A stretch of DNA of 64,000 nucleotides from Clostridiales bacterium (lineage in GTDB: Bacteria > Bacillota > Clostridia > Christensenellales > Aristaeellaceae). Positions 48,712-62,594 of this stretch are shown one piece after another. The notes under the pieces are model-generated. The model did no database searches and had not been told where the DNA came from. It saw nothing but the letters and a program-made list of their open reading frames with translations. Each line of letters opens with the position of its first letter. The stretch's first letter is position 1. Made by a program: the position numbers and the translations under genes. The stretch spans positions 31,961 to 95,960 of the forward strand of contig SVGU01000001.1 of the NCBI GenBank assembly GCA_015056155.1. Direction: 5' to 3'.

Positions 48712-49446
48712 TCAGTCCTCCCCGGAAACCGGCGTAGCGCGCAGATGGGAAAACACCTTCCCCACGCTGTCATGCAGCACCAGGTCGGCGGAAGTGTCCA
48801 TGGGCGTCGCGTCCCGGTTGACCAGCACCAGATGCCGTCCGCGGAAGTACCGCACCAGCCCCGCCGCCGGATAGACCGTCAGGGACGTTCCGGCGATGAT
48901 CATCGCGTCCGCCTGCCGGATGTGGTGCACGGCGGAGGACAGCACGTCGTCGTCCAGCCCCTCCTCGTACAAGACGACCTCCGGCTTGATCAGCCCGCCG
49001 CAGCGGCATTTCGGCACGCCCGCGCTGTCCCGGATGAACTCCGGCGGATAGAACGCGGCACATTTCAGGCACCGGTTGCGGTGGATGGAGCCGTGCAGCT
49101 CCAGAACGGTCCGGCTCCCTGCTTTTTGATGCAGCCCGTCGATGTTCTGCGTCACGATGGCGCTCAGGCGGCCTGCCTGCTCCAGCTGGGCGAGGAAGCG
49201 GTGCGCGGCGTTCGGCTGCGCGTCCAGAGGAAGCATCTTGTCCCGGTAGAAGCGATAGAACTCCTCCGTCCGCCGGTGGAAGAAGGTCGCGGAAAGGATC
49301 TCCTCCGGCGGCCAGTCGTACCGCTGATGGTACAGCCCGTCCACGCTGCGGAAATCGGGAATCCCCGACTCGGTACTCACGCCCGCGCCGCCGAAAAAGA
49401 CGATGCGCCGTGAATCGTCAATGATCTGCTGAAGCTCCTCGTACAC
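48712..49446 (-). CDS. Sir2-family NAD-dependent protein deacylase
   Basis: GTG start after GGGAGG; VFFGGAGVSTESGIPDFRS; TQNIDGLHQKAG; ELHGSIHRNRCLKC. Confidence 0.96.
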   Translation of the reverse strand: MYEELQQIIDDSRRIVFFGGAGVSTESGIPDFRSVDGLYHQRYDWPPEEILSATFFHRRTEEFYRFYRDKMLPLDAQPNAAHRFLAQLEQAGRLSAIVTQNIDGLHQKAGSRTVLELHGSIHRNRCLKCAAFYPPEFIRDSAGVPKCRCGGLIKPEVVLYEEGLDDDVLSSAVHHIRQADAMIIAGTSLTVYPAAGLVRYFRGRHLVLVNRDATPMDTSADLVLHDSVGKVFSHLRATPVSGED

Positions 49447-49481
49447 GCGATGACCTCCCTCGTTCGTACGGTCGATGAATG

Positions 49482-49748
49482 TTATCCACAACGCCTGTGG
49501 CAAACTTTGTGGATAACCTGTGGATGTTCGCCTAATTTGTCATCCACAGCGCCACTTATCCACAGGATTCCGCTGATTTCTGCGCCAGAATGCGGCATGT
49601 GCAGCGAAAAATGTCCGATGTGGGCTGTTTACAATTGTTAAATGGACATCCGCCTGGGATGGGTTATCCACAGGGAAATGCGAACACGCCGCCGGAATAA
49701 TCCACAGTATCCACAGGTTATCCACAACTATGCACCGCATTATCCCCA
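49482..49748. promoter_or_regulatory. Cluster of DnaA boxes
   Basis: Five perfect TTATCCACA (49482-49490, 49508-49516 minus, 49556-49564, 49664-49672, 49718-49726) plus four 8/9 matches (49540, 49698, 49707, 49740). Confidence 0.9.
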
Positions 49749-49807
49749 ATGAGGGGCGAAAATTGCCGGAGAAATCCTGTGGAATGTTCGGAAATCTGGT
49801 CGAAGCA

Positions 49808-51160
49808 TCACTTGCCGACGCAGAACATGCCGAACACCCGGTCCAGCAGGCGCTCCTCGACCTCGTCGCCGGTGATCTCCGCCAGGGCGAGCTGGGCAGA
49901 CTGCAGGTCGATGGAAGCCATGTCCACGGAGAGCATTCCGGCGGTTTCAGCAGCCTGGCGAAGGTGGCGCGCGGCGCGGCGTGCAGCCTCCACATGGCGC
50001 GGCTGGGTCAGGGCGAGGCGGTCGCTGACGGCGGCCTGTTCGGCGAGGTACTGCTTGAGCGGCGCGAGGCTTCCCGCGTCCGCCGCGCTGACCACCATGA
50101 CGGGCGCGTCCGGCAGCAGCGGAGCGACGTCCTTCGGCCCGATGGCGGCGGGCAGGTCAGCCTTGTTCAGCACGACGGCGCAGTTCCGCCCGGCGAGGGC
50201 AGCCAGCAGGGCGTGGTCGTCCCCGTCGGGGGCGCGGCTGGCGTCCAGGACGGCCAGCACCACGTCCGCCTCCTCCATCGCGCGGCGTGCGCGCTGAACG
50301 CCCAGCTGCTCCACCGGGTCGTCCGTGGCGTGGAGCCCGGCGGTGTCCGTCAGGTGGACGACGCTGCCGCCCAGCAGCACCTCGCCCGTTACCATGTCGC
50401 GGGTCGTGCCGGGGATGGGGGTGACGATCGCGCGCTCCTCGCCCAGCAGGGCGTTGAGGAGGCTCGATTTGCCGACGTTGGGCTGTCCGCACAGGGCGAC
50501 GCGCAGGCCGCTTTGCAGGATGCGGGCGGAGCGCTCGTCGCAGGCGGCGTCCAGCTCGTCCGCCAGCGCAGCGGCGCGGGGGATCAGGTCGGAAGCGGCT
50601 TCCTCCTCGGAGATCTCCTCCGGATAGTCGATGCATGCCGCCACGCCCGCCTGCAGCTCGTAGAGCGTATCCGCCGCTTTGCGGATGAACCCGGAGGCGC
50701 CGCCGTCCAGCTGGCGCATGGCCGCGCGGTGGCTCTGCTCGCCCTGCGCGGCGATGAGCGCCATCACGGCCTCCGCCTGGCTCAGGTCGATGCGCCCGTT
50801 GAGGAAGGCGCGGCGGGTGAACTCGCCCGGCTCGGCCAGACGCGCGCCCTCCCGCAGGCAAAGGGCCAGCACCCGCTGGCTCAGGTACGCGCCGCCGTGC
50901 AGCTGCAGCTCCGCCACGTCCTCCCGCGTGTAGGAGCGGGGCGCGCGCATGAGCACCGCCATGCACTCGTCGATGCGGTGTTCGCCGTCCATGACATGGC
51001 CGTAGACGAGCATGTGGCTCGTCAGGGGCAGCGCCTGCTTGCCGGCGGGCCGGAACACGCGCAGCAGGATCGCCTCCGCCTCCGGGCCGCTCAGGCGCAC
51101 GATGGCGACGCCGCCCTGTCCCGGCGCAGTCGCGATGGCGGCAATGGTATCGTTGATCAC
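49808..51160 (-). CDS. mnmE: tRNA modification GTPase MnmE
   Basis: DTIAAIATAPGQGGVAIVRLSG; GQPNVGKSSLLNALLGEERAIVTPIPGTTRD; C-terminal CVGK (FCIGK). Confidence 0.97.
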   Translation of the reverse strand: MINDTIAAIATAPGQGGVAIVRLSGPEAEAILLRVFRPAGKQALPLTSHMLVYGHVMDGEHRIDECMAVLMRAPRSYTREDVAELQLHGGAYLSQRVLALCLREGARLAEPGEFTRRAFLNGRIDLSQAEAVMALIAAQGEQSHRAAMRQLDGGASGFIRKAADTLYELQAGVAACIDYPEEISEEEAASDLIPRAAALADELDAACDERSARILQSGLRVALCGQPNVGKSSLLNALLGEERAIVTPIPGTTRDMVTGEVLLGGSVVHLTDTAGLHATDDPVEQLGVQRARRAMEEADVVLAVLDASRAPDGDDHALLAALAGRNCAVVLNKADLPAAIGPKDVAPLLPDAPVMVVSAADAGSLAPLKQYLAEQAAVSDRLALTQPRHVEAARRAARHLRQAAETAGMLSVDMASIDLQSAQLALAEITGDEVEERLLDRVFGMFCVGK

Positions 51161-52005
51161 AGTGATTCCTCCATATGGGACCAGTATTCCCCGCTGGTCA
51201 TCTTTTCCGCCCATGGGTAGCTGCGGTCGGCGAGCTTCCAGGCCGCCTCATCACCGAAGGAGAGGCCGTTTTCCGCCGCGACCCGCTGCACATGGCGCAT
51301 CAGCTTCAGCACGCCCTGATATTCCGCCGTCAGCAGCACCCTTGCGCACGCGCGGCAGATCTCCGGCGCAGCCTTGCACATGCCGGTGTCGATGAAGGCG
51401 CGCAGCGTCCGGCGGACGTCGTAGGGGACCAAATGCCGCGTCAGGCGCATCGCCCCGCCGTCCGTCTCGAGCACCGCGAAGGGCGCAGCCGCGCCGACGC
51501 CGTCCTCCGCCATCCCGACGCTGCCGGGGTTGAAGGCCCGACGGCCGCCGTGGGTCACGTCCCACTGGTGATGGTTGTGCCCGGAGAGCAGCAGCGTCAC
51601 GCCCTCCGGCAGCGTCTCCAGCACCGCTGGCAGCTCCGGCGGCTGCACCAGATGATAGGGCGCGCCGGGGGTGCCGTGGGTGAAGAGCACCCCGTCCCGG
51701 CGAAGATCCGTGGGCAGACGCAGGTCGATCCCCGCCATCTGCGCCGCCGTCCAGCGCACGGGCGCCCAGTTGTACGCGTCAAATTCGCTGTCCGCGGGCC
51801 GGGTGAGGCGCTCCTCGTGGTTCCCCAGCAGCATCACCGCGCCCAGCGACGCAAGCCGCTGATGGACCTCGCGGCTTTGCGCGCAGAAGCTGACATGATC
51901 CCCCAGGGACACGATCCCGTCGCAGGCCTGCGCCTCCGCCGTGGCCAGCACCGCCTCCAGCGCGGGGAGATTGCCGTGGATGTCCGACACGATCAGCGTC
52001 CGCAT
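51157..52005 (-). CDS. Metallophosphoesterase
   Basis: LIVSDIHGNLPALEAVL; GDHVSF; LLGNHEE; LSGHNHHQW. Confidence 0.92.
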   Translation of the reverse strand: MRTLIVSDIHGNLPALEAVLATAEAQACDGIVSLGDHVSFCAQSREVHQRLASLGAVMLLGNHEERLTRPADSEFDAYNWAPVRWTAAQMAGIDLRLPTDLRRDGVLFTHGTPGAPYHLVQPPELPAVLETLPEGVTLLLSGHNHHQWDVTHGGRRAFNPGSVGMAEDGVGAAAPFAVLETDGGAMRLTRHLVPYDVRRTLRAFIDTGMCKAAPEICRACARVLLTAEYQGVLKLMRHVQRVAAENGLSFGDEAAWKLADRSYPWAEKMTSGEYWSHMEESL

Positions 52006-52125: not shown

Positions 52126-52362
52126 TCAGTATTCCATGGCGCGGGCGGAGTCTGCTGCGCCTTCGGTCGTGGGGTCGATCACCACGCCCAGGCCGCTCAG
52201 CAGCGTCAGCACGGCAGTCACCAGCTGCATCACCGCGTCCTCCGTCACCGAGGGGACGACGTCCAGCATGGCCAGCACGTCAAAGGCGAATGCGCACACC
52301 GTCGCGGCCATGGTCATCAGCCAGACCCGGTTGCGGAAACGTACCTTCCAGTTGATCTTCAT
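52126..52362 (-). CDS. Phage holin (phi LC3-like)
   Basis: MKINWKVRFRNRVWLMTM...LLSGLGVVIDPTTEGAADS. Confidence 0.88.
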   Translation of the reverse strand: MKINWKVRFRNRVWLMTMAATVCAFAFDVLAMLDVVPSVTEDAVMQLVTAVLTLLSGLGVVIDPTTEGAADSARAMEY

Positions 52363-52384
52363 CGTGTTCCTCCTTTCTGTTGCC

Positions 52385-52618
52385 TCATGGCTTGTGGTAT
52401 TCCTTCAGGTCGCGCACCTCGTGCTCCATTTCGGTCATCCGCCCCTCCAGGCGGAAGGTGCGCTCGATCACCTGATTGTGCTTCCCGACCTGCTCCTCCA
52501 GGCGCTTGAGCCGGTAGGCGGTCAGGGACGAGGTGGCCATCACGCCGCCAAGGCTCCCCAGCAGCGTGCATGCGCCGGAGATCACGGCCACCAGGATCGC
52601 CTCACTCACAGCCTTCAC
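52385..52618 (-). CDS. Small phage protein, N-terminal TM plus coiled coil (XhlA/lysis-accessory-like)
   Basis: N-terminal hydrophobic segment, then LKRLEEQVGKHNQVIERTFRLEGRMTEMEHEVRDLKEYHKP, next to holin. Confidence 0.55.
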   Translation of the reverse strand: MKAVSEAILVAVISGACTLLGSLGGVMATSSLTAYRLKRLEEQVGKHNQVIERTFRLEGRMTEMEHEVRDLKEYHKP

Positions 52619-53258
52619 CTCCCAGCGCCGCCCAGGTCTTCGGGCCGACGATCCCGTCGCGCTCCAGGCCGCAGCGGCTCTGATAGGTCTTCACGCAGTT
52701 TTCCGTGATGTATCCGAAGATGCCGTCGATCTCCAGCTCGTACCCTTCGTCGCGCAGCGCGCGCTGGAGCGCCTTGACGTCGCTGCCCCGGCTCCCGCGC
52801 CGCAGGCAGGCGCTCACGGGCAGCCGCTCCGCGCCGGACTCCATATCCACCGCCGACAGCACGCCCCAGTACTGCCATTTGCCGAGCTTGCTGTCGGCCC
52901 GGACGCGCATGCCGTCGGTGGATGCGTGGACGATGCGGAGGGGATCGACACCCGTGACCAGCCCGATGTGGCAGAAGTCGCCGAGGTCGTCGGAGAATTT
53001 CTCCGGGGTCTTTTCCTTCCATTTGAAGACGGCCATGCCGGGGCGAAGGTCGCCTACGGAGAGGATCAGCCCCTTTGCGAAGAGATATTTGCGCCAGATG
53101 GTGTTGCTGCCGTGGTAGATGCGTGCGCCCTGGCGGCGGTATGCGCGCACGAACATGCCGGAGCAGTCGATCCCCCGCTCGTCGTTGGAGCCGGGGGACA
53201 CATAGGGCCAGCCGATGCAGGCCTCGAAATCAGCGATCAGCTGCTGAAGATCAAGCAT
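52602..53258 (-). CDS. Endolysin: NlpC/P60-like amidase/peptidase + peptidoglycan-binding domain
   Basis: GIDCSGMFVRAYRRQG; HIGLVTG; C-terminal GSDVKALQRALRDEGYELEIDGIFGYITENCVKTYQ. Confidence 0.88.
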   Translation of the reverse strand: MLDLQQLIADFEACIGWPYVSPGSNDERGIDCSGMFVRAYRRQGARIYHGSNTIWRKYLFAKGLILSVGDLRPGMAVFKWKEKTPEKFSDDLGDFCHIGLVTGVDPLRIVHASTDGMRVRADSKLGKWQYWGVLSAVDMESGAERLPVSACLRRGSRGSDVKALQRALRDEGYELEIDGIFGYITENCVKTYQSRCGLERDGIVGPKTWAALGGEGCE

Positions 53259-53306
53259 CGCCGGCACCTCCCTGATGATGGTTGCGGTTCATGGTTTCCT
53301 CCTGGT

Positions 53307-54698
53307 TCAGATCTTTTCGATCACTTTCATCGCGACGCTTGTGTTGACCGCGCCTTCATTGGGGAAGACGGTGAAGGTGTGCCGCCCGGCGGTGATCACG
53401 CCGAGGTCGTTTCGCTTCAGGTAGGGCAGCGCGTCGAAGCTGCCGTCTGCATAGACGACGCCGGGGACCTCGTTGCCGTCCACGCTGACGCCCACGACGC
53501 GCACGCCGTCGTCGGGATCGAAGCGCATCGTGCAGGCGAGGACGGCGGCCCAGTCCTCCGTGTGGAAATAGTGGACGATGGGGCTGGCGGCGGTGCCTTC
53601 TGCGCGGTTCTCGAAGGTCACGTCGGTCACGCGGCCGCCGATGAGGTGGCTTGCCATCACCTCGCGCAGCATGTCCGCGATCTCGTCCGATGCGTCGTGC
53701 ACCCGGCTGCACAGCGTGACCGTGACCTGCCCGGGCGCGCCGAACACGTCCGGCTTGCGCAGCCCCGTCACCCGCTCGTGCATCACCATGCCGTATTCGG
53801 GCATGGCCAGGCGGCACATGCGGCCGAGGCGGAAGCTGTCCGCGTCCTCGCCGGTCATGGCGCTCAGGTCGAGGGCGTCTGCGGTCACGCTGACGGCGGG
53901 GACGCTGTGGCGCTCCAGGTACTTTTCGGCGACGGACTTCAGCGTGGGCATGTCGAAGATGGTGTTTGCGGTGAAGGTGCGGCAGACGCGTCCCCACTGG
54001 CTGACGGCGGCGGATTCGAGCCAGTCCGTGCCTGTCAGGGGCGTAAGGCTGATGCGCTCGGTGCCCTGCCCGGCGCCGTAGGGGTAGACCCGCGTGCACA
54101 GGTCGGATGCGTCCATGGCGATCTGCACCCCGGAGAGGTTCCGGCTCAGGCGGCCCTCGCAGGCGTCGGCGTCGCTCATCTGCCGCAGGTGCATCACCCA
54201 TGCCTGGCTGCTCTGCTCGCATTGCAGCATCAGCGTGTCCGGCAGCATGTCGATCAGGTTCATCAGCGCTGTGAGCAGGTTCGTGCAGCCGCAGGTGAAG
54301 ATCACCGTCGTTTCCGCCGGAAGCTCGAGATCGCCCAGCACCCAGCGCATCGCCGCCTGATGGGACAGGAGCCGGTCGATGACGGACTGCGGCGTGCCGG
54401 TCAGGCTCATCGCGGGAACCACGCCGTCGGCCAGGGTCGCCAGCGAATGCTCCAGATACACCGTCCGGATGAGACCGGGCTGCAGGTCAACGCCGGTGAC
54501 GCGGAAGATCCCGACGCTGCCCGCTTCGTCGAACAGCTCGATCAGGTCGCGCACAGCCACGGCAGGGTCGGATTCCGGAAGGTGCATCACCGCCGTGGAC
54601 AGCGGGCGCAGCTGCAGATCCAGCGTCAGCCGGGTCGGGGACAGGCGGGCGCGCTCGCGAAGGCCTGCGTCCAGCAGCCTTGGCAGCCGTATGGTCAC
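53307..54698 (-). CDS. Phage tail-associated/Tal-like minor structural protein
   Basis: GTG start; position after Dit; beta-rich, receptor/endopeptidase-tail-like architecture. Confidence 0.65.
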   Translation of the reverse strand: MTIRLPRLLDAGLRERARLSPTRLTLDLQLRPLSTAVMHLPESDPAVAVRDLIELFDEAGSVGIFRVTGVDLQPGLIRTVYLEHSLATLADGVVPAMSLTGTPQSVIDRLLSHQAAMRWVLGDLELPAETTVIFTCGCTNLLTALMNLIDMLPDTLMLQCEQSSQAWVMHLRQMSDADACEGRLSRNLSGVQIAMDASDLCTRVYPYGAGQGTERISLTPLTGTDWLESAAVSQWGRVCRTFTANTIFDMPTLKSVAEKYLERHSVPAVSVTADALDLSAMTGEDADSFRLGRMCRLAMPEYGMVMHERVTGLRKPDVFGAPGQVTVTLCSRVHDASDEIADMLREVMASHLIGGRVTDVTFENRAEGTAASPIVHYFHTEDWAAVLACTMRFDPDDGVRVVGVSVDGNEVPGVVYADGSFDALPYLKRNDLGVITAGRHTFTVFPNEGAVNTSVAMKVIEKI

Positions 54699-55453
54699 AG
54701 CAGCCGCCCCCTTCCGCTGAAGACAGCCTGTACGGGCTGGTCAGCCGTCACGCTCACGGGCGTTGCGGCGCCGCCGTCCGCCAGCAGCAGGTCGCTGGAG
54801 TCGCCGCTGCGCAGCATCAGTGCGCCCGTGCCGTTCGCGTCCGCATAGAGCAGGCCGTCGGACATGCCGAGGGTGAATTTCTTTCCGGCGGCGAGGGAGA
54901 GGCCGGAAAAGGTCATCTGCGTATCGCCGCAGCGCAGGGTGAGCGTCGTCAGTGCGGCGGAGCCGTTGTTGGTCACGACCGCGCCGACCGGGCATTCGTC
55001 GGCGTTCCCGGGGAGGGTGAGGGTCGCGCTGCTGCCGGTGGTGACCTTCGCGGATTCGTCCGTCTCCCAGAAGGGGACGGCGTAGGCGGTGAACTCGATG
55101 GCAAGCTCGTCCGTCCAGCACAGCGCGCTCATGGTCGGCAGCGTGTCGCACTGTACGGTCAGGTGCTGCCCGGGGCGGTCGCTCACGGTCAGCAGCCCGC
55201 CGGGTTCCGCCCAGCGGTGCAGGGCCTGCAGCACCGTGCGGCGGCGGACCGGGTCCTCCTCGGCAATGAGGAAGCTGACCCGGACGGTCAGACTCTCGCG
55301 GACGCGCCGGAGCAGCCGCAGGCCGTGGCGCGCGGTGGGGACCGTCACGACCCTGCGCCGGGGCGGCAGCTCCGTCAGGTCGGTCACGCGGACAGCCGGG
55401 TCGATGCTCGCGGGCGAAATGCCGTTGAGCGTGCAGGAAAAGCGTTCGTTCAA
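54695..55453 (-). CDS. Distal tail (Dit)-like protein
   Basis: TTG start with AAGGAGGT RBS; NERFSCTLNGISPASIDPAVRVTDLTELPPR...; AIEFTAYAVPFWE typical of Dit. Confidence 0.65.
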   Translation of the reverse strand: MNERFSCTLNGISPASIDPAVRVTDLTELPPRRRVVTVPTARHGLRLLRRVRESLTVRVSFLIAEEDPVRRRTVLQALHRWAEPGGLLTVSDRPGQHLTVQCDTLPTMSALCWTDELAIEFTAYAVPFWETDESAKVTTGSSATLTLPGNADECPVGAVVTNNGSAALTTLTLRCGDTQMTFSGLSLAAGKKFTLGMSDGLLYADANGTGALMLRSGDSSDLLLADGGAATPVSVTADQPVQAVFSGRGRLL

Positions 55454-55659
55454 GGGGTGTACCTCCTTTGTCTTGCAATGCGGGCGATGGCTGCGGAGAG
55501 CCTCGGCGTGAGCATTTCGCACAGCGCGTCTGCGTCGGGGAAAGCGGGGGATTGGGCGGATTCGCTGCCTGCCCGCCCGGTCGGGGACGGCAGCGGCGTG
55601 CGCAGCTCAGCGGCGGGAAGCGTCCAGCTGCGGATCGCCGGGAAGGACTGGTCAGTCAT
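55450..55659 (-). CDS. 69-aa protein at the tape-measure position
   Basis: Start/stop overlaps with both neighbours (ATGA and TTGA). Confidence 0.6.
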   Translation of the reverse strand: MTDQSFPAIRSWTLPAAELRTPLPSPTGRAGSESAQSPAFPDADALCEMLTPRLSAAIARIARQRRYTP

Positions 55660-56167
55660 CGGCAGCGCCTCCTTTCATGGGCCGGAGCGTCCGGGGCATG
55701 CCGCCGGGAGCGCCGCCGCCGTCCTCCTCCGGGAAGAGAGAGAGAGCATCGGGCAGGGCTTCGTCGCCGCAGATGCGCCACATCAGCTGCAGCGCGTAGC
55801 GGGCCATGGCCTGCTGCTGCCGTTGATGGGCGATCAGCTGCGCCAGCGCGTCCATCGTGGGCGGAAAATGGCACTGACAGAGCGCCTGCAGCACCTCCGC
55901 CGGGCTGCACTGCCCGCAGATATGGAAAAATGCCAGCGCCTCGCGGTCGAAGCACTGGCGGATGGTCTCGGTGGTCAGGTCGCTGCCGCCCAGCAGGGAC
56001 ACGGCTGCTGCCGCGTCCTCCGGGTGGGCATGCAGCGTAAGGGAGAGCACGTCGTACCGCGCATCCGATTCGCCGTCGGAAAAGGCGGATACGGCGCGGC
56101 GGACGACGGCATCGCGGGACAGGCGGCACAGGTGCGGCGTCAGGGCGCACAGGGTCGTTACAGTCAT
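55652..56167 (-). CDS. Phage tail-assembly protein (chaperone-like position)
   Basis: Overlaps neighbours; location between tail tube and Dit. Confidence 0.5.
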   Translation of the reverse strand: MTVTTLCALTPHLCRLSRDAVVRRAVSAFSDGESDARYDVLSLTLHAHPEDAAAAVSLLGGSDLTTETIRQCFDREALAFFHICGQCSPAEVLQALCQCHFPPTMDALAQLIAHQRQQQAMARYALQLMWRICGDEALPDALSLFPEEDGGGAPGGMPRTLRPMKGGAADD

Positions 56168-56736
56168 GTCGTCGCCTCCTTCGGCCACAGCAGGCGGCAG
56201 GGGAGGCCAGCGGTGTTCGTCCTGTGTGCCAGCAGCGTGAAGGGCATTTCGCCAAAGCCGCTTCGGGCGGTGCGCAGCGCCATGCCGCCGGTGCTGACGG
56301 GGCAGTGCAGCTCAATGGCCATCAGCCCGGAGCCGGTCATGCCGAACCAGCAGAGGTTGTCAGCGGAAGCCGCGAAAACCGGGGGACAGGGCGGAGCCAT
56401 CGGCGCGCTCTGCGGCAGGTTCAGCAGCATAGCGGCGTTGCCGGGGCTGATCTCCAGGAGCGTGCCGGACAGGGTGACCGTCCAGCGGCGGACGAGGGTT
56501 TCGCCCGGCATGGGAGTGCGGCAGCCGCGGGTCGTGTCGAGCATGTCCGGCGTGCAGCGGAAGACGCAGCCGTCCCGGGTCGCGCCCAGCAGACGGCTTT
56601 CGTCCTGCATGGCCTGCGCCAGCGCGGCGGCGGGATCATTCGCGTTCATCACGCCGTCCGCGTCAACGCCGCGCAGCAGCACGCCCTCGCCCAGCTGCAG
56701 GTGGGCGCCGGCGGAAGTGTGAATGGAATCAAGCAT
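56164..56736 (-). CDS. Putative major tail/tail tube protein
   Basis: Order after tail-completion protein; beta-rich 190 aa. Confidence 0.5.
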   Translation of the reverse strand: MLDSIHTSAGAHLQLGEGVLLRGVDADGVMNANDPAAALAQAMQDESRLLGATRDGCVFRCTPDMLDTTRGCRTPMPGETLVRRWTVTLSGTLLEISPGNAAMLLNLPQSAPMAPPCPPVFAASADNLCWFGMTGSGLMAIELHCPVSTGGMALRTARSGFGEMPFTLLAHRTNTAGLPCRLLWPKEATT

Positions 56737-56754
56737 GTGGGTGCCTCCTTTGGC

Positions 56755-57126
56755 TCATTTGTGCGCCAGCCGCAGGGCCAGGCGGATGCGGACGCCCATC
56801 GCGCCCCGCTTTTCGGGGAAGGACAGGAGCCGTTCGTCCGGGCGGAAGACGGCGGCGATCCCGCCTGGAAGCGGCAGCAGCCGGCCGCCGGGCGGAACGC
56901 ACTGAAGCAGCCGGTCCGCCATGAGCAGGCGCTCTGCGTGGGGAATGTCCGGGGTCGTCCACAGGGTCAGCGTGATGCTGCCTGCGCCGGCGTATGTGGC
57001 GGGCGGGTCGATCAGGCAGGTGACCAGGGGCAGCGCGGCGGCGGCGGGGACTGCGTCCTGCGGATATGCGGTGAAGCCGGACTGCTCCAGCAGCGCGCGC
57101 AGGCGGTCGTAGAGCGACATCAGCAT
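56755..57126 (-). CDS. Putative tail completion/terminator (neck) protein
   Basis: MSLYDRLRALLEQSGFTAYPQDA...LTLWTTPDIPHAERLLMADRL; positional (start could be 57120). Confidence 0.5.
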   Translation of the reverse strand: MLMSLYDRLRALLEQSGFTAYPQDAVPAAAALPLVTCLIDPPATYAGAGSITLTLWTTPDIPHAERLLMADRLLQCVPPGGRLLPLPGGIAAVFRPDERLLSFPEKRGAMGVRIRLALRLAHK

Positions 57127-57551
57127 GGCGTCACCAGCCTTTTGGGGTACATGCGCCTGTACGGCGCAAGGGCGGAGGCGAACACCTTCGTCCAGTCCGC
57201 GCAGTTCGGACTGCGGCTGACGTCGCCCAGATGCTCGCTGACGGTCGTGGGGTAGGGGTGCTTCTCCGTCCAGTCGGCGATCTCGGCGCACAGGCGCAGG
57301 AAACCGGCGGGGGGCGACAGGCGGCAGATGCAGCCCGTCCATTCGGCGCTGCCTGCGCCGGGGATCGCGCCGTTTTCGTCCAGCTGCCATACGCCGCGGG
57401 CGGGGCCTTCTGAGATGGCGATCCATTCGCCGGGATAGAAGTGGGAGGCGGGCTGAAGCATGTCGTCAGCGAGCGTCCAGCGGGTGCAGACCTGTTCAGC
57501 CGGGAAATAGTTGCGGACGTGACGCATCACATCCGGTACGGTAATGATCAT
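57120..57551 (-). CDS. Head-tail connector-like protein
   Basis: MIITVPDVMRHVRNYFPAEQVCTRWTLAD...; immediately downstream of capsid gene. Confidence 0.55.
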   Translation of the reverse strand: MIITVPDVMRHVRNYFPAEQVCTRWTLADDMLQPASHFYPGEWIAISEGPARGVWQLDENGAIPGAGSAEWTGCICRLSPPAGFLRLCAEIADWTEKHPYPTTVSEHLGDVSRSPNCADWTKVFASALAPYRRMYPKRLVTPC

Positions 57552-57625
57552 GTGAACCTCCTGTATTGGGGTCGGTGAGGTACAGAAAAAGAGGCTCCCC
57601 CGGAGAAGGAGGAGCCCCTGAAGGA

Positions 57626-58438
57626 TCAGCCGGTGATGGTGTAGACGCACACGGCCGCGGGCAGCACGACCTTCGCGCCGCTCAGGCACAGACCCTTCAC
57701 GCCGTCGCTGAAGCCGCGCTCGGGACGGTAGGCGTCCACGCGGGTGATCTGGTTGGCGAAGGTGACTGCTTCGGGGATCATGGCGATGATCTCCTTGCTC
57801 AGGTCGGCGCTGATGTAGATGTCGAAGCCGGCCGCGCGGGCGACGGAGCCCTCGGTCAGGCGGTGCGCCGCGTCGGAGGTGCCGGTGACGAAGCGGTTGT
57901 CCAGCAGCAGCTCCGTCTCCAGCGCGGGAGGCAGCACCAGCTTGCGGTCGCTGCGGGGAACGCCTGCGGTGTCCATCACGTCCTTGATCTGCAGCAGCAG
58001 CGCATACAGGCCGCCGTCGCCTTCGCTGGGGATGGCAGCGCTCTTCTTCACGCCTGCGCCGCTGCGGATGACGGACAGGATGTAGGTCTCCGCGTCGCGG
58101 GCCAGGCGCTCGGCGGCGTTCTTCATCGCCGCGTCCATCAGGTCGGCGCGGGCCTGCACCGCATCCACGTCGTTGATGCGGAAGTTGTAGTAGGCGCCGT
58201 GGTCGATGGTCAGGGTGGTGTCGGTGCCGGAAAGCTCCTCGGGATCGTCGATGGCGACGCTGGGGTCGTAGGCCTTGACGGTGATGTCGTTGATGGTGTT
58301 GATGTGCACGGTGTCGCCCCACTGGCGGATGTCGCCTTCATAGCTGCGGTTGCACAGCAGGCCGAAGACCAGCGCATGCTGGAGCTTCTCCTGCAGACGG
58401 GCGGACCAGACCTGGGGGATGAAATTGGAAATAGCCAT
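57626..58438 (-). CDS. Major capsid protein (P22-coat/HK97-like)
   Basis: MAISNFIPQVWSARLQEKLQHALVFGLLCNRSYEGDIRQWGDTVHINTINDITVKAYD. Confidence 0.85.
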   Translation of the reverse strand: MAISNFIPQVWSARLQEKLQHALVFGLLCNRSYEGDIRQWGDTVHINTINDITVKAYDPSVAIDDPEELSGTDTTLTIDHGAYYNFRINDVDAVQARADLMDAAMKNAAERLARDAETYILSVIRSGAGVKKSAAIPSEGDGGLYALLLQIKDVMDTAGVPRSDRKLVLPPALETELLLDNRFVTGTSDAAHRLTEGSVARAAGFDIYISADLSKEIIAMIPEAVTFANQITRVDAYRPERGFSDGVKGLCLSGAKVVLPAAVCVYTITG

Positions 58439-58484
58439 ATGTGTGATTCCTCCTGAAATATCAATATTGATCGTATGTTTGGTG

Positions 58485-59066
58485 TTATCTGCGCTGCATC
58501 AGCGCGGAGCGTACCTGGCTCCAGTTGCGGTTGATCTCCTCGGGGGACATGAGGCGCACATCGTCGGGCGAAAGTGCGCTGCCGTCCAGCGGCGGGGAGA
58601 CGCGGTCGGTCGGGATGGGAACGGGGGATGAGAAGAATGCGCCGTACTGGCTGACAACGGGGGAGATGACGTCTGCATCCGCCCGGAGCTCGGTGCCGTT
58701 CCAGTCCTCCTCGGTGGTCTGTACGGCGCGGGCCAGCAGGGGCAGGGCCTGCTCGTTCGCGCCTGCGCGGCGCAGCAGCTCGCAGATGGCGTCTGCCCGG
58801 CCCTGGGCGGTCCGCTCGGTGTGGACCTGCTGGCGGAAGGTCTCCAGCTCGGTGCGGAGCTGGTCTGCCTCCTGCTGGAATGCGCCGGCTTCCTCGCGGA
58901 ACCGGTCGCGCTCGGAGGCGGTCTGTTCGTGTGCCGCGGCAGAGGCGAGGGCTTCGTCGCGTTCGGCCTTGAGGGCCTGTACGGTCTCCGCATGGGCGGC
59001 AATGATGCGTTCGATGCTTTCGTCGGTCAGCTGAAGCTCGCGGAGGAGCTTGCGGGTCAGGGACAT
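58485..59066 (-). CDS. Scaffolding protein (GP20-like)
   Basis: Long coiled coil LKAERDEALASAAAHEQTASERDRFREEAGAFQQEADQLRTELETFRQQV; between portal and capsid. Confidence 0.75.
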   Translation of the reverse strand: MSLTRKLLRELQLTDESIERIIAAHAETVQALKAERDEALASAAAHEQTASERDRFREEAGAFQQEADQLRTELETFRQQVHTERTAQGRADAICELLRRAGANEQALPLLARAVQTTEEDWNGTELRADADVISPVVSQYGAFFSSPVPIPTDRVSPPLDGSALSPDDVRLMSPEEINRNWSQVRSALMQRR

Positions 59067-59114
59067 GGGTCCCTCCTTTCTGTGCATTTCGCTGCACGCA
59101 AAGGGGCAGGCGCG

Positions 59115-60485
59115 TTACTCTGCGTCTGCCCGGCTGCCCGGCGCTGCGCTGTGCAGCAGGCCGGGGATGTGTTCGTCGGAAATGTAGGGATTGAGGCGCA
59201 GCGCCGTCTCCTGGTCGATGTCCTGCCGCATCACGGCGATGTCGGCGACCGTCTCGGATTCGTTGGCGATGGCCTGTCGCTTGAAGCGGACGTTCTCACA
59301 GGGGCAGCCGATGAGGCGGAGCAGCTCGGTGATGAACTGCCGCACCTGCCATTCGTAGCGGTCGGCCTTCAGGTTGAGGTTCGCGGCGGCCACGCGGATG
59401 GCGACGTTCGTGAGGCTGGAGCCGGTGAGCGCGTCCATGTCCAGGGCCATGTAGTCCTGGTAGAGGCTGCGCTCGAGCAGGTCGAGGGCGGCTCGGCGAG
59501 CGGCGTAGGGCACCTCGATGGTCTTCGGCTCGGCGGATGCGCCGCTGCCCGTTCCGTCGGACAGATTGGCGACTGCCTTCACGCGGTTGATCTGCTCAAG
59601 CATTTCGGCCACGTCGTCCATCGTGCCGCCGAAGTTGTTCAGCACCCAGTAGACGTCGTTGGCGCGGTCGAGGTTGTCGGCGAAGTCGGAGAGGATGGCG
59701 TCATACGCGTCGATCTTGGCGCGGATGGCGGGGGTGAATTCGCTCAGCCCGTCGCTGTTGGCGCGCAGGGGAATGAGCGGCAATCGGCCGTAGCCGGGCT
59801 CGGTGCGGGTGGTTTCGCCCAGGGCGTCGCGGCGCAGGCTGCGGCGGTAGGGCTGGCAGGGCGTCATGAGCGTCAGACCGTCGCCGTCCTGCCGCATGAG
59901 CGTCACACCCTCCTGCGAAAACACGCGCAGGTACATCGGCCGGTCGGCGGCCAGCTGCCAGAACTGCACGCCGAGCATCGCTTCGCCCGTCATTTCGTCC
60001 AGCAGCGGGAAAAAGCCGCTCCAGCTGTTGCGGGCGGCCTCGATCACTTCGATATGGTCGGCGTTCCAGTAGCCCCAGGCGCAGCCGTGCAGCAGCGCGC
60101 GCTCGCCCAGCCGCTCCAGCTGATGGTCGAAGTCCGCGCCGAGGCGGCGCTTGACCTCCTGCGGCAGGCTCACGCCCTCGGACAGCAGGAACTGGTTCTG
60201 CTGGGTCACGAAGCGGAACAGGAAGCTGCTGCCGATGCGGTTTCCTACCACATCCTCTGCGGCGGAGCGCACGCGGCGGCGGCCCTGGGCGTCGCGGGTC
60301 TCGATCTTCCGGGCGCGCAGGATGGTCTTGCGCGCCACCTGCGTGTTTTCGCCCCGGAAGTAGCAGTTGGCCTCCAGTGCATGCTGAAAGCCGCGCGACG
60401 CCTTGTAGCGCTTTACCGCCTCCAGCAGCAGCGTGGGCTGGTCCTGTGCGCCGAGGTAGTCCTGATAGGTGACAGTGGTGAACAT
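59115..60485 (-). CDS. Portal protein (SPP1 gp6-like)
   Basis: 456 aa; NRIGSSFLFRFVTQQNQFLLSEG, GCAWGYWNADHIEV, SDFADNLDRANDVYWVLNNFGG. Confidence 0.88.
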   Translation of the reverse strand: MFTTVTYQDYLGAQDQPTLLLEAVKRYKASRGFQHALEANCYFRGENTQVARKTILRARKIETRDAQGRRRVRSAAEDVVGNRIGSSFLFRFVTQQNQFLLSEGVSLPQEVKRRLGADFDHQLERLGERALLHGCAWGYWNADHIEVIEAARNSWSGFFPLLDEMTGEAMLGVQFWQLAADRPMYLRVFSQEGVTLMRQDGDGLTLMTPCQPYRRSLRRDALGETTRTEPGYGRLPLIPLRANSDGLSEFTPAIRAKIDAYDAILSDFADNLDRANDVYWVLNNFGGTMDDVAEMLEQINRVKAVANLSDGTGSGASAEPKTIEVPYAARRAALDLLERSLYQDYMALDMDALTGSSLTNVAIRVAAANLNLKADRYEWQVRQFITELLRLIGCPCENVRFKRQAIANESETVADIAVMRQDIDQETALRLNPYISDEHIPGLLHSAAPGSRADAE

Positions 60486-60518
60486 TGGTTTATCTCCTTA
60501 TATGGTTCGTTGGGGGAT

Positions 60519-61760
60519 TCAGCCATGGCGGTCCATGGCGCGGAGCAGACAGGCGGCGCTGTCGGGCGCGTCGTCGTGGGCGGCGTCCGGCGTGTAGTCC
60601 AGGATCTGGTCGATATACGCGCGGTCTGTCCCCTTGATGAACACGGCGTCCGGCCACCATTTTCGCAGCCATGTGCCGATTTTGATGTGCTTGTTCGTCT
60701 GCTCCGTATAGGTGCGGACGGCCGCGCCGCGCCGACGGAGCTCCCGGGCCACATAGCCCTTGTCGCCGTTGGTCTCGCAAAGGATCGGCGCGCATTGCAG
60801 CCGATCGCATTCTGTGATGATCTCGTCCATCACAGCGTCCACCGGCTTACGCCAGAGGCGGCCGTACAGGAAGGCGTGATGCCCGTCGATGCGTCCGCAG
60901 GTCAGGGCAGTGAAATCGCTGCCGCCGTAGGCCGCGTCGATGTGCGCCATGCCGTCCCGCAGCAGCAGGGGGTCGCCGTCCTCCGGCGGGCGCTGCCCAA
61001 AGAGCGCTTCCTCTGCCGCGATGTGCTTCAGCTCATAATTCGCCGCGAACAGCGACGGCGTCATCGACCGCTGCAGCGCCTTTAGCTTGCCCTCGCTCAG
61101 CAGCCCCGTGCGCCAGCAGTCGTACCTGCGCACGTTGGGCATCAGGGAGATCGCGTCCTCCGGGTGCCAGGGCGTGCCGGTGTTGATGATGCGGCCGCCG
61201 GGGTTGCGGATGTTCTGCAGCTCCTGATAGACTCCGCGGATACGCCGCCGTTCTGTGCCGGAGCTGCGGTCGTGCAGGTTGACGATGTCGTCCGTCAGCA
61301 CGATGTCCGCGTGCTTGCCCGTCAGGGAACCGAGGGTTCCCAGGCCCAGCAGCTGCGATGCACCCCTGGGGGCGGAAAAGCAGGTGGTGTGCACGGTGTA
61401 CATGTCGCTGCGCAGCAGCTGCACGGGCTCGTCGTAGATGCATGCGCTCAGATACTGCATGGCGTCCGTGCGCAGGAGCATCTTCACCTGCCGCAGCACC
61501 TCGACCACATCCTCGTCCGTCTTGCGCAGGAAGATGATGTTCTTCGTCGGGTACAGCAGGAGCATCGCCGTCATCGAGAAGGCGAGGCAGGTCGTCTTGT
61601 AGCTGCCGCGGTGGGCGAGCAGCGTCATGTCGTCCCGGCCGGCGATCATGTCCCGGAGCCATATCCCGTGGAGCCCGTCCGTCAGCCGGTCAAGTCCGCA
61701 CCACCGCGCCGCCAGTGCCGGGCGGGTCAGGAGCAGCTCAATGGCTGTCCGACGGTGCAT
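60519..61760 (-). CDS. Terminase large subunit
   Basis: LAHRGSYKTTCLAFSM (Walker A-like), DIVLTDDIVN (Walker B), nuclease Asp IDAAYGGSDFTAL and CETNGDKGYVARELRRRG. Confidence 0.93.
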   Translation of the reverse strand: MHRRTAIELLLTRPALAARWCGLDRLTDGLHGIWLRDMIAGRDDMTLLAHRGSYKTTCLAFSMTAMLLLYPTKNIIFLRKTDEDVVEVLRQVKMLLRTDAMQYLSACIYDEPVQLLRSDMYTVHTTCFSAPRGASQLLGLGTLGSLTGKHADIVLTDDIVNLHDRSSGTERRRIRGVYQELQNIRNPGGRIINTGTPWHPEDAISLMPNVRRYDCWRTGLLSEGKLKALQRSMTPSLFAANYELKHIAAEEALFGQRPPEDGDPLLLRDGMAHIDAAYGGSDFTALTCGRIDGHHAFLYGRLWRKPVDAVMDEIITECDRLQCAPILCETNGDKGYVARELRRRGAAVRTYTEQTNKHIKIGTWLRKWWPDAVFIKGTDRAYIDQILDYTPDAAHDDAPDSAACLLRAMDRHG

Positions 61761-62001
61761 CGTCCGCCTCCTGCGGCCGGGTGAGCTCCCGGACGGCGGC
61801 TTCGATCTCAGCGATCAGCTCCGGCTTGTAACCGGCGCTTTCCTTCGGTGTGAACAGGCTGTGGTATTTCGCCAGCTGTTCAGCCGCCTTGAGCTGCTCG
61901 CTGGTCTTCTCGCTGCGCATCAGCTGCGTGAAGGTCTCCAGCACTTCGTCCGGCGTGGCAATGTCCGGCTCGTATTCAGCTGGGTTCATGTCGGTGTTCA
62001 T
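61738..62001 (-). CDS. Putative terminase small subunit
   Basis: DEVLETFTQLMRSEKTSEQLKAAEQLAKYHSLFTPKE; upstream of terminase large gene. Confidence 0.65.
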   Translation of the reverse strand: MNTDMNPAEYEPDIATPDEVLETFTQLMRSEKTSEQLKAAEQLAKYHSLFTPKESAGYKPELIAEIEAAVRELTRPQEADDAPSDSH

Positions 62002-62198
62002 CCTTTCTATATAATGTAGTGTTCCGTACGGATGGGAACAGAAAAGGCGCTCTCCGCGAAGGAGAACGCCTGAATGTTTGCGTGGAATGGGAATGCTTGT
62101 TCTGTTTTCCACGATACCATCATACCACGGATGGGGTGATAATGCAAGCTAATCTTTGCTGAACTTTGTCAGCCGGTGACAGCCTGCGTCAATCCATG

Positions 62199-62594
62199 TC
62201 AGCCGACCTGCGCGATATAGTCGTTGCGGATCTGGTTGATCCGCGCGCGGCTCATGCTGAGCTTGCGGGCGATATCTGTGTCGGTGGAGGCCTGCAGGTA
62301 ATAATTCTGAATGACCATAAAGGTGCGGAAGTTGCCGATCTGCGACAGGAGCATCCCCACCGGAACGGCGAGGTCTGCAAGCTCTGTGCGCTTGCGGTCC
62401 ATCATCTCCTCGATCCCGTCGGACGCCTGCATCGCTGCCGCGACCGGGTCATTCGTGCCGGGCAGGGTGTCGAGCCGGAGCCCGGCGGCTCCCCTCGGCG
62501 TTCCGCTGGAGCCGGTCCTGTCCAGCTGCACCGCCAGGTCGTGAAGGTCGATCACCGCTGCCCGATAAGCCTGCAGCATTTCCAGATTCGTCAT
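62199..62594 (-). CDS. Phage sigma-70-region-4/RinA-like regulator (DUF1492-type)
   Basis: C-terminal HTH FMVIQNYYLQASTDTDIARKLSMSRARINQIRNDYI. Confidence 0.7.
   Translation of the reverse strand: MTNLEMLQAYRAAVIDLHDLAVQLDRTGSSGTPRGAAGLRLDTLPGTNDPVAAAMQASDGIEEMMDRKRTELADLAVPVGMLLSQIGNFRTFMVIQNYYLQASTDTDIARKLSMSRARINQIRNDYIAQVG

Follow-up and report, generated by a model that had tools for sequence, protein, structure and literature searches.

A clade-restricted cluster of DnaA boxes outside oriC as a candidate DnaA sink in gut Clostridia

In Bacillus subtilis, the joint removal of six DnaA-box clusters (DBCs) located outside the origin leads to early initiation, according to reviews of the work of Okumura et al. 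2012 (PMC5295017, PMC13220808), and any single cluster matters little (PMC5295017). The datA and DARS loci of Escherichia coli provide further non-origin precedents (PMC5010248, PMC12371093): datA needs IHF and promotes the hydrolysis of DnaA-ATP, DARS1 and DARS2 regenerate ATP-DnaA, the latter with IHF and Fis (PMC5295017), and chromosomal titration of DnaA proceeds with a contribution from datA and DARS (PMC12371093). Among clostridia, C. difficile has a bipartite oriC with the DnaA-trio CACCTACTACTATTACTACTATGA (PMC7561715). No work on oriC in Christensenellales came up in a literature search. Here we analyze a dense cluster of DnaA boxes, cluster A or element A, in a stretch of 64,000 nucleotides (the window) from contig C129 of bin G000 (2.9 Mb, 158 contigs, 74% complete); among named genomes, the bin is closest to gut 'Clostridia'/Christensenellaceae metagenome assemblies. 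We argue that this element is probably a non-origin DnaA-binding cluster acting as a DnaA sink or regulator, as the B. subtilis DBCs or datA do.

Element A (49482..49748) contains nine TTATCCACA boxes, five perfect and four with one mismatch, arranged as two groups flanking a variable spacer; the preliminary description had reported five perfect and four 8/9 boxes in about 270 bp, and the cluster was recovered exactly at the stated position. It resembles the B. subtilis DBCs in that several boxes lie within a short stretch outside oriC, in a Gram-positive genome holding multiple clusters, and differs from them in being clade-specific, rigidly spaced and mostly placed between convergent genes. 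With datA it shares about five strong boxes, a non-coding nature and a single copy, and with DARS1 and DARS2 the character of a non-coding DnaA-box site outside oriC, to which it adds a possible motif for a second protein; the activities outlined above are those of the E. coli loci. In box type and density it is also comparable to the bipartite oriC of C. difficile (PMC7561715), but, unlike clostridial bipartite origins, it has no DnaA-trio, unwinding element or skew switch, features that in this genus are found in the region upstream of dnaN.

The clustering is far beyond expectation. The window has 19 sites with at most one mismatch to TTATCCACA, and nine of them fall in the 267 bp of element A; shuffling predicts 3.9 such sites for the whole window, and the maximum in any 267-bp stretch of 100 simulated windows was two. 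Perfect boxes number 40 across the G000 genome, versus 8 for a reversed control pattern, and two G000 contigs scanned completely yielded one further comparable stretch, cluster B, with eight boxes.

Pattern scanning and alignment with four relatives define the architecture of the element. The left group opens with a perfect plus-strand box (49482..49490) that is the same in all five genomes, followed by the invariant core CTGTGGCAAACTTTGTGGATA (49495..49515, plus strand), delimited by five-way alignment and family search. A minus-strand box (49508..49516) is perfect in G000 and carries one mismatch in the four relatives. The plus-strand box TCATCCACA (49540..49548) has one mismatch and an invariant portion, CATCCACAG, and a perfect plus-strand box (49556..49564), invariant in the five genomes, closes the group. 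In the right group all boxes are oriented uniformly on the plus strand, with start-to-start distances of 34, 9, 11 and 22 bp: a perfect box (49664..49672) unchanged across the five genomes; TAATCCACA (49698..49706), with one mismatch and invariant; GTATCCACA (49707..49715), with one mismatch in G000 and one or two in the relatives; a perfect, invariant box (49718..49726); and TTATCCCCA (49740..49748), with one mismatch in G000 and replaced by the perfect TTATCCACA in G007 and G010. In G000, a perfect 19-nt inverted repeat pairs two boxes of the left group with two of the right, its left arm (49507..49525, a box and a weak box, leftward) matching the right arm at 49709..49727. The intervening spacer (49566..49661) is unconserved, is not AT-rich in G011 and includes the AT-rich patch noted previously at 49626-49645; the patch is present, but it is only mildly AT-rich (63% AT in the best 30 bp) and is not conserved among relatives.

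Element A was found, always as non-coding sequence, in five of the 308 genomes of the family: besides G000, it occurs as a single copy in G007, G010, G011 and G001, with 71-74% DNA identity to G000, and the mnmE proteins of this set are about 80% identical to that of the window. The exact CTGTGGCAAACTTTGTGGATA core is likewise confined to these five genomes among the 308, and allowing two mismatches adds seven more genomes, in which the matches mostly resemble ordinary box pairs. Order, orientation and spacing of the boxes are kept across the five genomes and the central spacer drifts. Invariant columns make up 76 of 81 box positions (94%) versus 54 of 186 non-box positions (29%), a difference with a Fisher p of about 1e-24 when columns are taken as independent in five genomes that share ancestry. 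The alignment thus indicates strong selection on the boxes. Within the genus, no copy of the element turned up in 13 of 18 genomes, including close relatives such as G016, an absence that missing contigs could explain; G016 is the single genome in which the element-free site was actually read. In an mnmE tree, the bearers fall within one nine-member clade and require two changes, on a weakly supported backbone.

The genes around the element are less constant than its boxes. In G000, the left neighbor is a Sir2-family gene (Pfam SIR2, 48712..49446, minus strand) and the right neighbor is mnmE (TrmE_N, MnmE_helical, 49808..51214, minus strand), beyond which come a phosphoesterase gene and a phage-like block, likewise on the minus strand. 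In G007, G010, G011 and G001 a low-molecular-weight-phosphatase-like gene takes the left position; mnmE lies on the right in three genomes, and in G011 and G001 a DUF1292-like gene is found there, so that the conserved element is found within three flank combinations: Sir2|mnmE, phosphatase|mnmE and phosphatase|DUF1292. In the latter four genomes it sits between converging gene ends. The preliminary description was right that genes do not diverge here, since they converge towards cluster A, but the rRNA operon it placed to the right is not in the window, where Rfam finds no rRNA. At the element-free site of G016 (G016:C42, L274 about 1945-2250), the phosphatase-like gene is followed by a hairpin-like terminator and then the DUF1292-like gene. 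Elsewhere in the window, the only Rfam match, a T-box leader (RF00230, 37305-37546), lies directly 5' of an ileS-like gene.

This arrangement bears on whether DnaA bound here controls the transcription of a neighboring gene such as sir2, a role with precedent in B. subtilis, where DnaA is a transcription factor (PMC4447404), and consistent with the position of the G000 element just upstream of sir2, its first box about 36 bp from the likely start. We nevertheless consider such control unlikely, because the convergent gene ends in four of the five genomes, which also lack sir2 beside the element, leave no downstream gene for a promoter to serve; in addition, a search of 49300-49900 for promoters and terminators found neither, so that no promoter-like site accompanies the boxes.

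Element A could also be an active switch of the DnaA nucleotide state, through datA-like hydrolysis or DARS-like reactivation, that would need a second protein bound to ATGTTCG motifs. Three conserved motifs of the GTTCG type, distinct from DnaA boxes, do lie within or beside the element: ATGTTCGC (49524..49531, plus strand), invariant in the five genomes; GCGAACAC (49680..49687, minus strand), in which GAACA is invariant; and ATGTTCGG (49784..49791, plus strand), immediately beyond the boxes. The motif is about 30-fold enriched over background around clusters A and B, and the two box groups keep a fixed spacing. Yet the motif is absent at another cluster of the genus (cluster D, below), its positions are inherited, so that the enrichment does not represent many independent cases, and a review (PMC5295017) knows of no B. 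subtilis site of this type. We therefore regard the switch as a doubtful reading, and equally tentative is its bolder form, a lineage-specific, context-independent element at which DnaA and a second, ATGTTCG-binding protein would actively switch DnaA, as a separately evolved Firmicute counterpart of datA/DARS. As a separate observation, ATGTTCG/CGAACAT occurs at 49524-49531, 49680-49687 and 49784-49791 and in the flanks of cluster B. We also considered ATGTTCG as a general dnaA-promoter motif and discarded the idea, the motif being found upstream of dnaA only in G011 and G001 and farther out in G016.

A third reading, raised in the preliminary description, is that the element is the chromosome's true oriC, drifted away from dnaA. 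Element A does present a cluster of DnaA boxes, dense, in both orientations and adjoining mnmE. As had been stated, no dnaA or dnaN is in view; both are missing from the whole bin, where only a weak partial AAA+ match turned up. With both genes absent from this 74%-complete bin, the oriC of G000 was assigned from relatives. In the genus, dnaA is an orphan: its neighbors, named by eye from a home-made gene caller, are neither dnaN nor recF, and in G012 rnpA, yidC and jag (also named by eye) lie some 15 kb from it. We rejected dnaA as an oriC marker: it is an orphan preceded by one to four perfect boxes, and neither G008 nor G016 shows a clear skew minimum there. After dnaN come recF and an addA-like helicase gene (named by eye). 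Computed contig by contig, cumulative GC skew reaches its minimum at dnaN in G007, G011, G015, G016 and G012, is less clear in G006 and is flat in G008.

Upstream of dnaN, several DnaA boxes precede a DnaA-trio-like run, which in G016 reads CACCTACTACTACTGCTGACTATAATATATC / CACCTACTACTACTGCTGA, nearly the C. difficile trio; G016 and G012 show the run clearly, and it has degenerated further in G007, G011 and G001. Perfect parS sites lie on the dnaN contig, a few kb from dnaN, in 13 of the 15 genomes having parS-like sites, the sites of G003 and G013 being on a different contig of a fragmented bin. Because skew minimum, trio-like repeats and parS proximity coincide there, we place the oriC of the genus, as predicted from these signatures, upstream of dnaN and apart from the orphan dnaA (G007:C87, about 13.6-14.3 kb, G011:C77, G016:C25 and G012:C28; L246, L255, L258 and L126+L262).

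The premise of an oriC parted from dnaA is hence real for the genus, but the origin remained with dnaN and not at element A. G007, G011 and G001 carry both the dnaN-oriC locus and element A, on separate contigs, with perfect parS sites at the former and not at the latter. The skew at element A is positive on either side in G000, G007 and G011, with no sign switch; the element has neither a DnaA-trio nor a conserved AT-rich element; parS is never found at it; and 13 of 18 genus genomes did not yield it. ParA/ParB genes near the element, beside mnmE in G007 and G010, were considered as a sign of oriC and set aside, as parS was found at dnaN instead; no parS was found in the G000 bin, from which the dnaN contig is missing. 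The preliminary description had stated that a GC-skew minimum together with a second, stronger box cluster beside dnaA would reject oriC, and this test rejects an oriC at this site: element-bearing relatives have the skew minimum, the other DnaA-box group, the trio-like repeats and parS at dnaN, which makes it very improbable that element A is a relocated origin.

That the element is a relic of an origin once carried by a plasmid or phage is hardly credible: a phage-like block does start about 2.4 kb rightward, but plasmid and phage collections gave no match, no recognized replication gene adjoins the element in the five genomes, and its boxes appear to be under selection. The block itself (52126-62594, one strand) encodes a terminase, portal, scaffold, major head, tail/minor head, endolysin and holin, apparently without long-tail genes, is syntenic with a phage-like block near mnmE in G016:C37 (about 0.5-10 kb) and is possibly a domesticated prophage.

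We return to the reading of element A as a DnaA sink or regulator. Several DnaA boxes are clustered here outside an oriC whose position is taken from relatives, and constrained boxes, independence from gene context and a location between convergent genes indicate a task for bound DnaA other than gene control or on-site initiation. The DnaA of relatives keeps the usual DNA-binding signature NRDHTTVLH, and binding to TTATCCACA is predicted on that basis. DnaA would probably load cooperatively onto both groups of about five boxes, and the loaded groups would form a nucleoprotein complex that withdraws DnaA from the free pool; with less free DnaA, re-initiation at the oriC proper, next to dnaN, would be delayed or dampened. 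DnaA binding, titration and an effect on initiation at element A are what we infer from this pattern. The second option of the preliminary description, that of a cluster like datA, DARS or those of B. subtilis with a titrating or regulatory role, agrees with the selected boxes, the lack of origin features and the convergent surroundings. Titration is the simplest reading, and nucleotide switching is a possibility. As the element was not found in most genomes of the genus, its function may be dispensable or covered by other clusters.

The genus has several such clusters; of these, element A is the one whose presence was observed to differ between close relatives. Cluster B (four of its eight boxes perfect; G000:C155 52447-52595, L119 9848-9996) precedes an Amidase_3 gene, a position where it is found again in most of the genus genomes examined. 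Cluster D (up to 11 boxes; L246 4982-5089), flanked by a DUF1858 gene and a rubrerythrin-like gene and about 8-12 kb away from dnaN, has equivalents in G001, G002, G006, G008, G011, G012, G014, G016 and G017 and is the densest cluster in G016, G017 and G001. Two to three perfect boxes also recur within the addA-like gene beside recF (L123 6453-6544, L257 10339-10430, L258 14065-14156), where they could reflect protein-coding constraint or a real site.

The analysis places oriC in an uncultured gut lineage and describes an element restricted to part of a single genus, with its boxes fixed, where dnaA is separate from oriC. Non-origin DnaA clusters have so far been tested in few organisms, and related species that either carry or lack a candidate titration site would offer a natural comparison.
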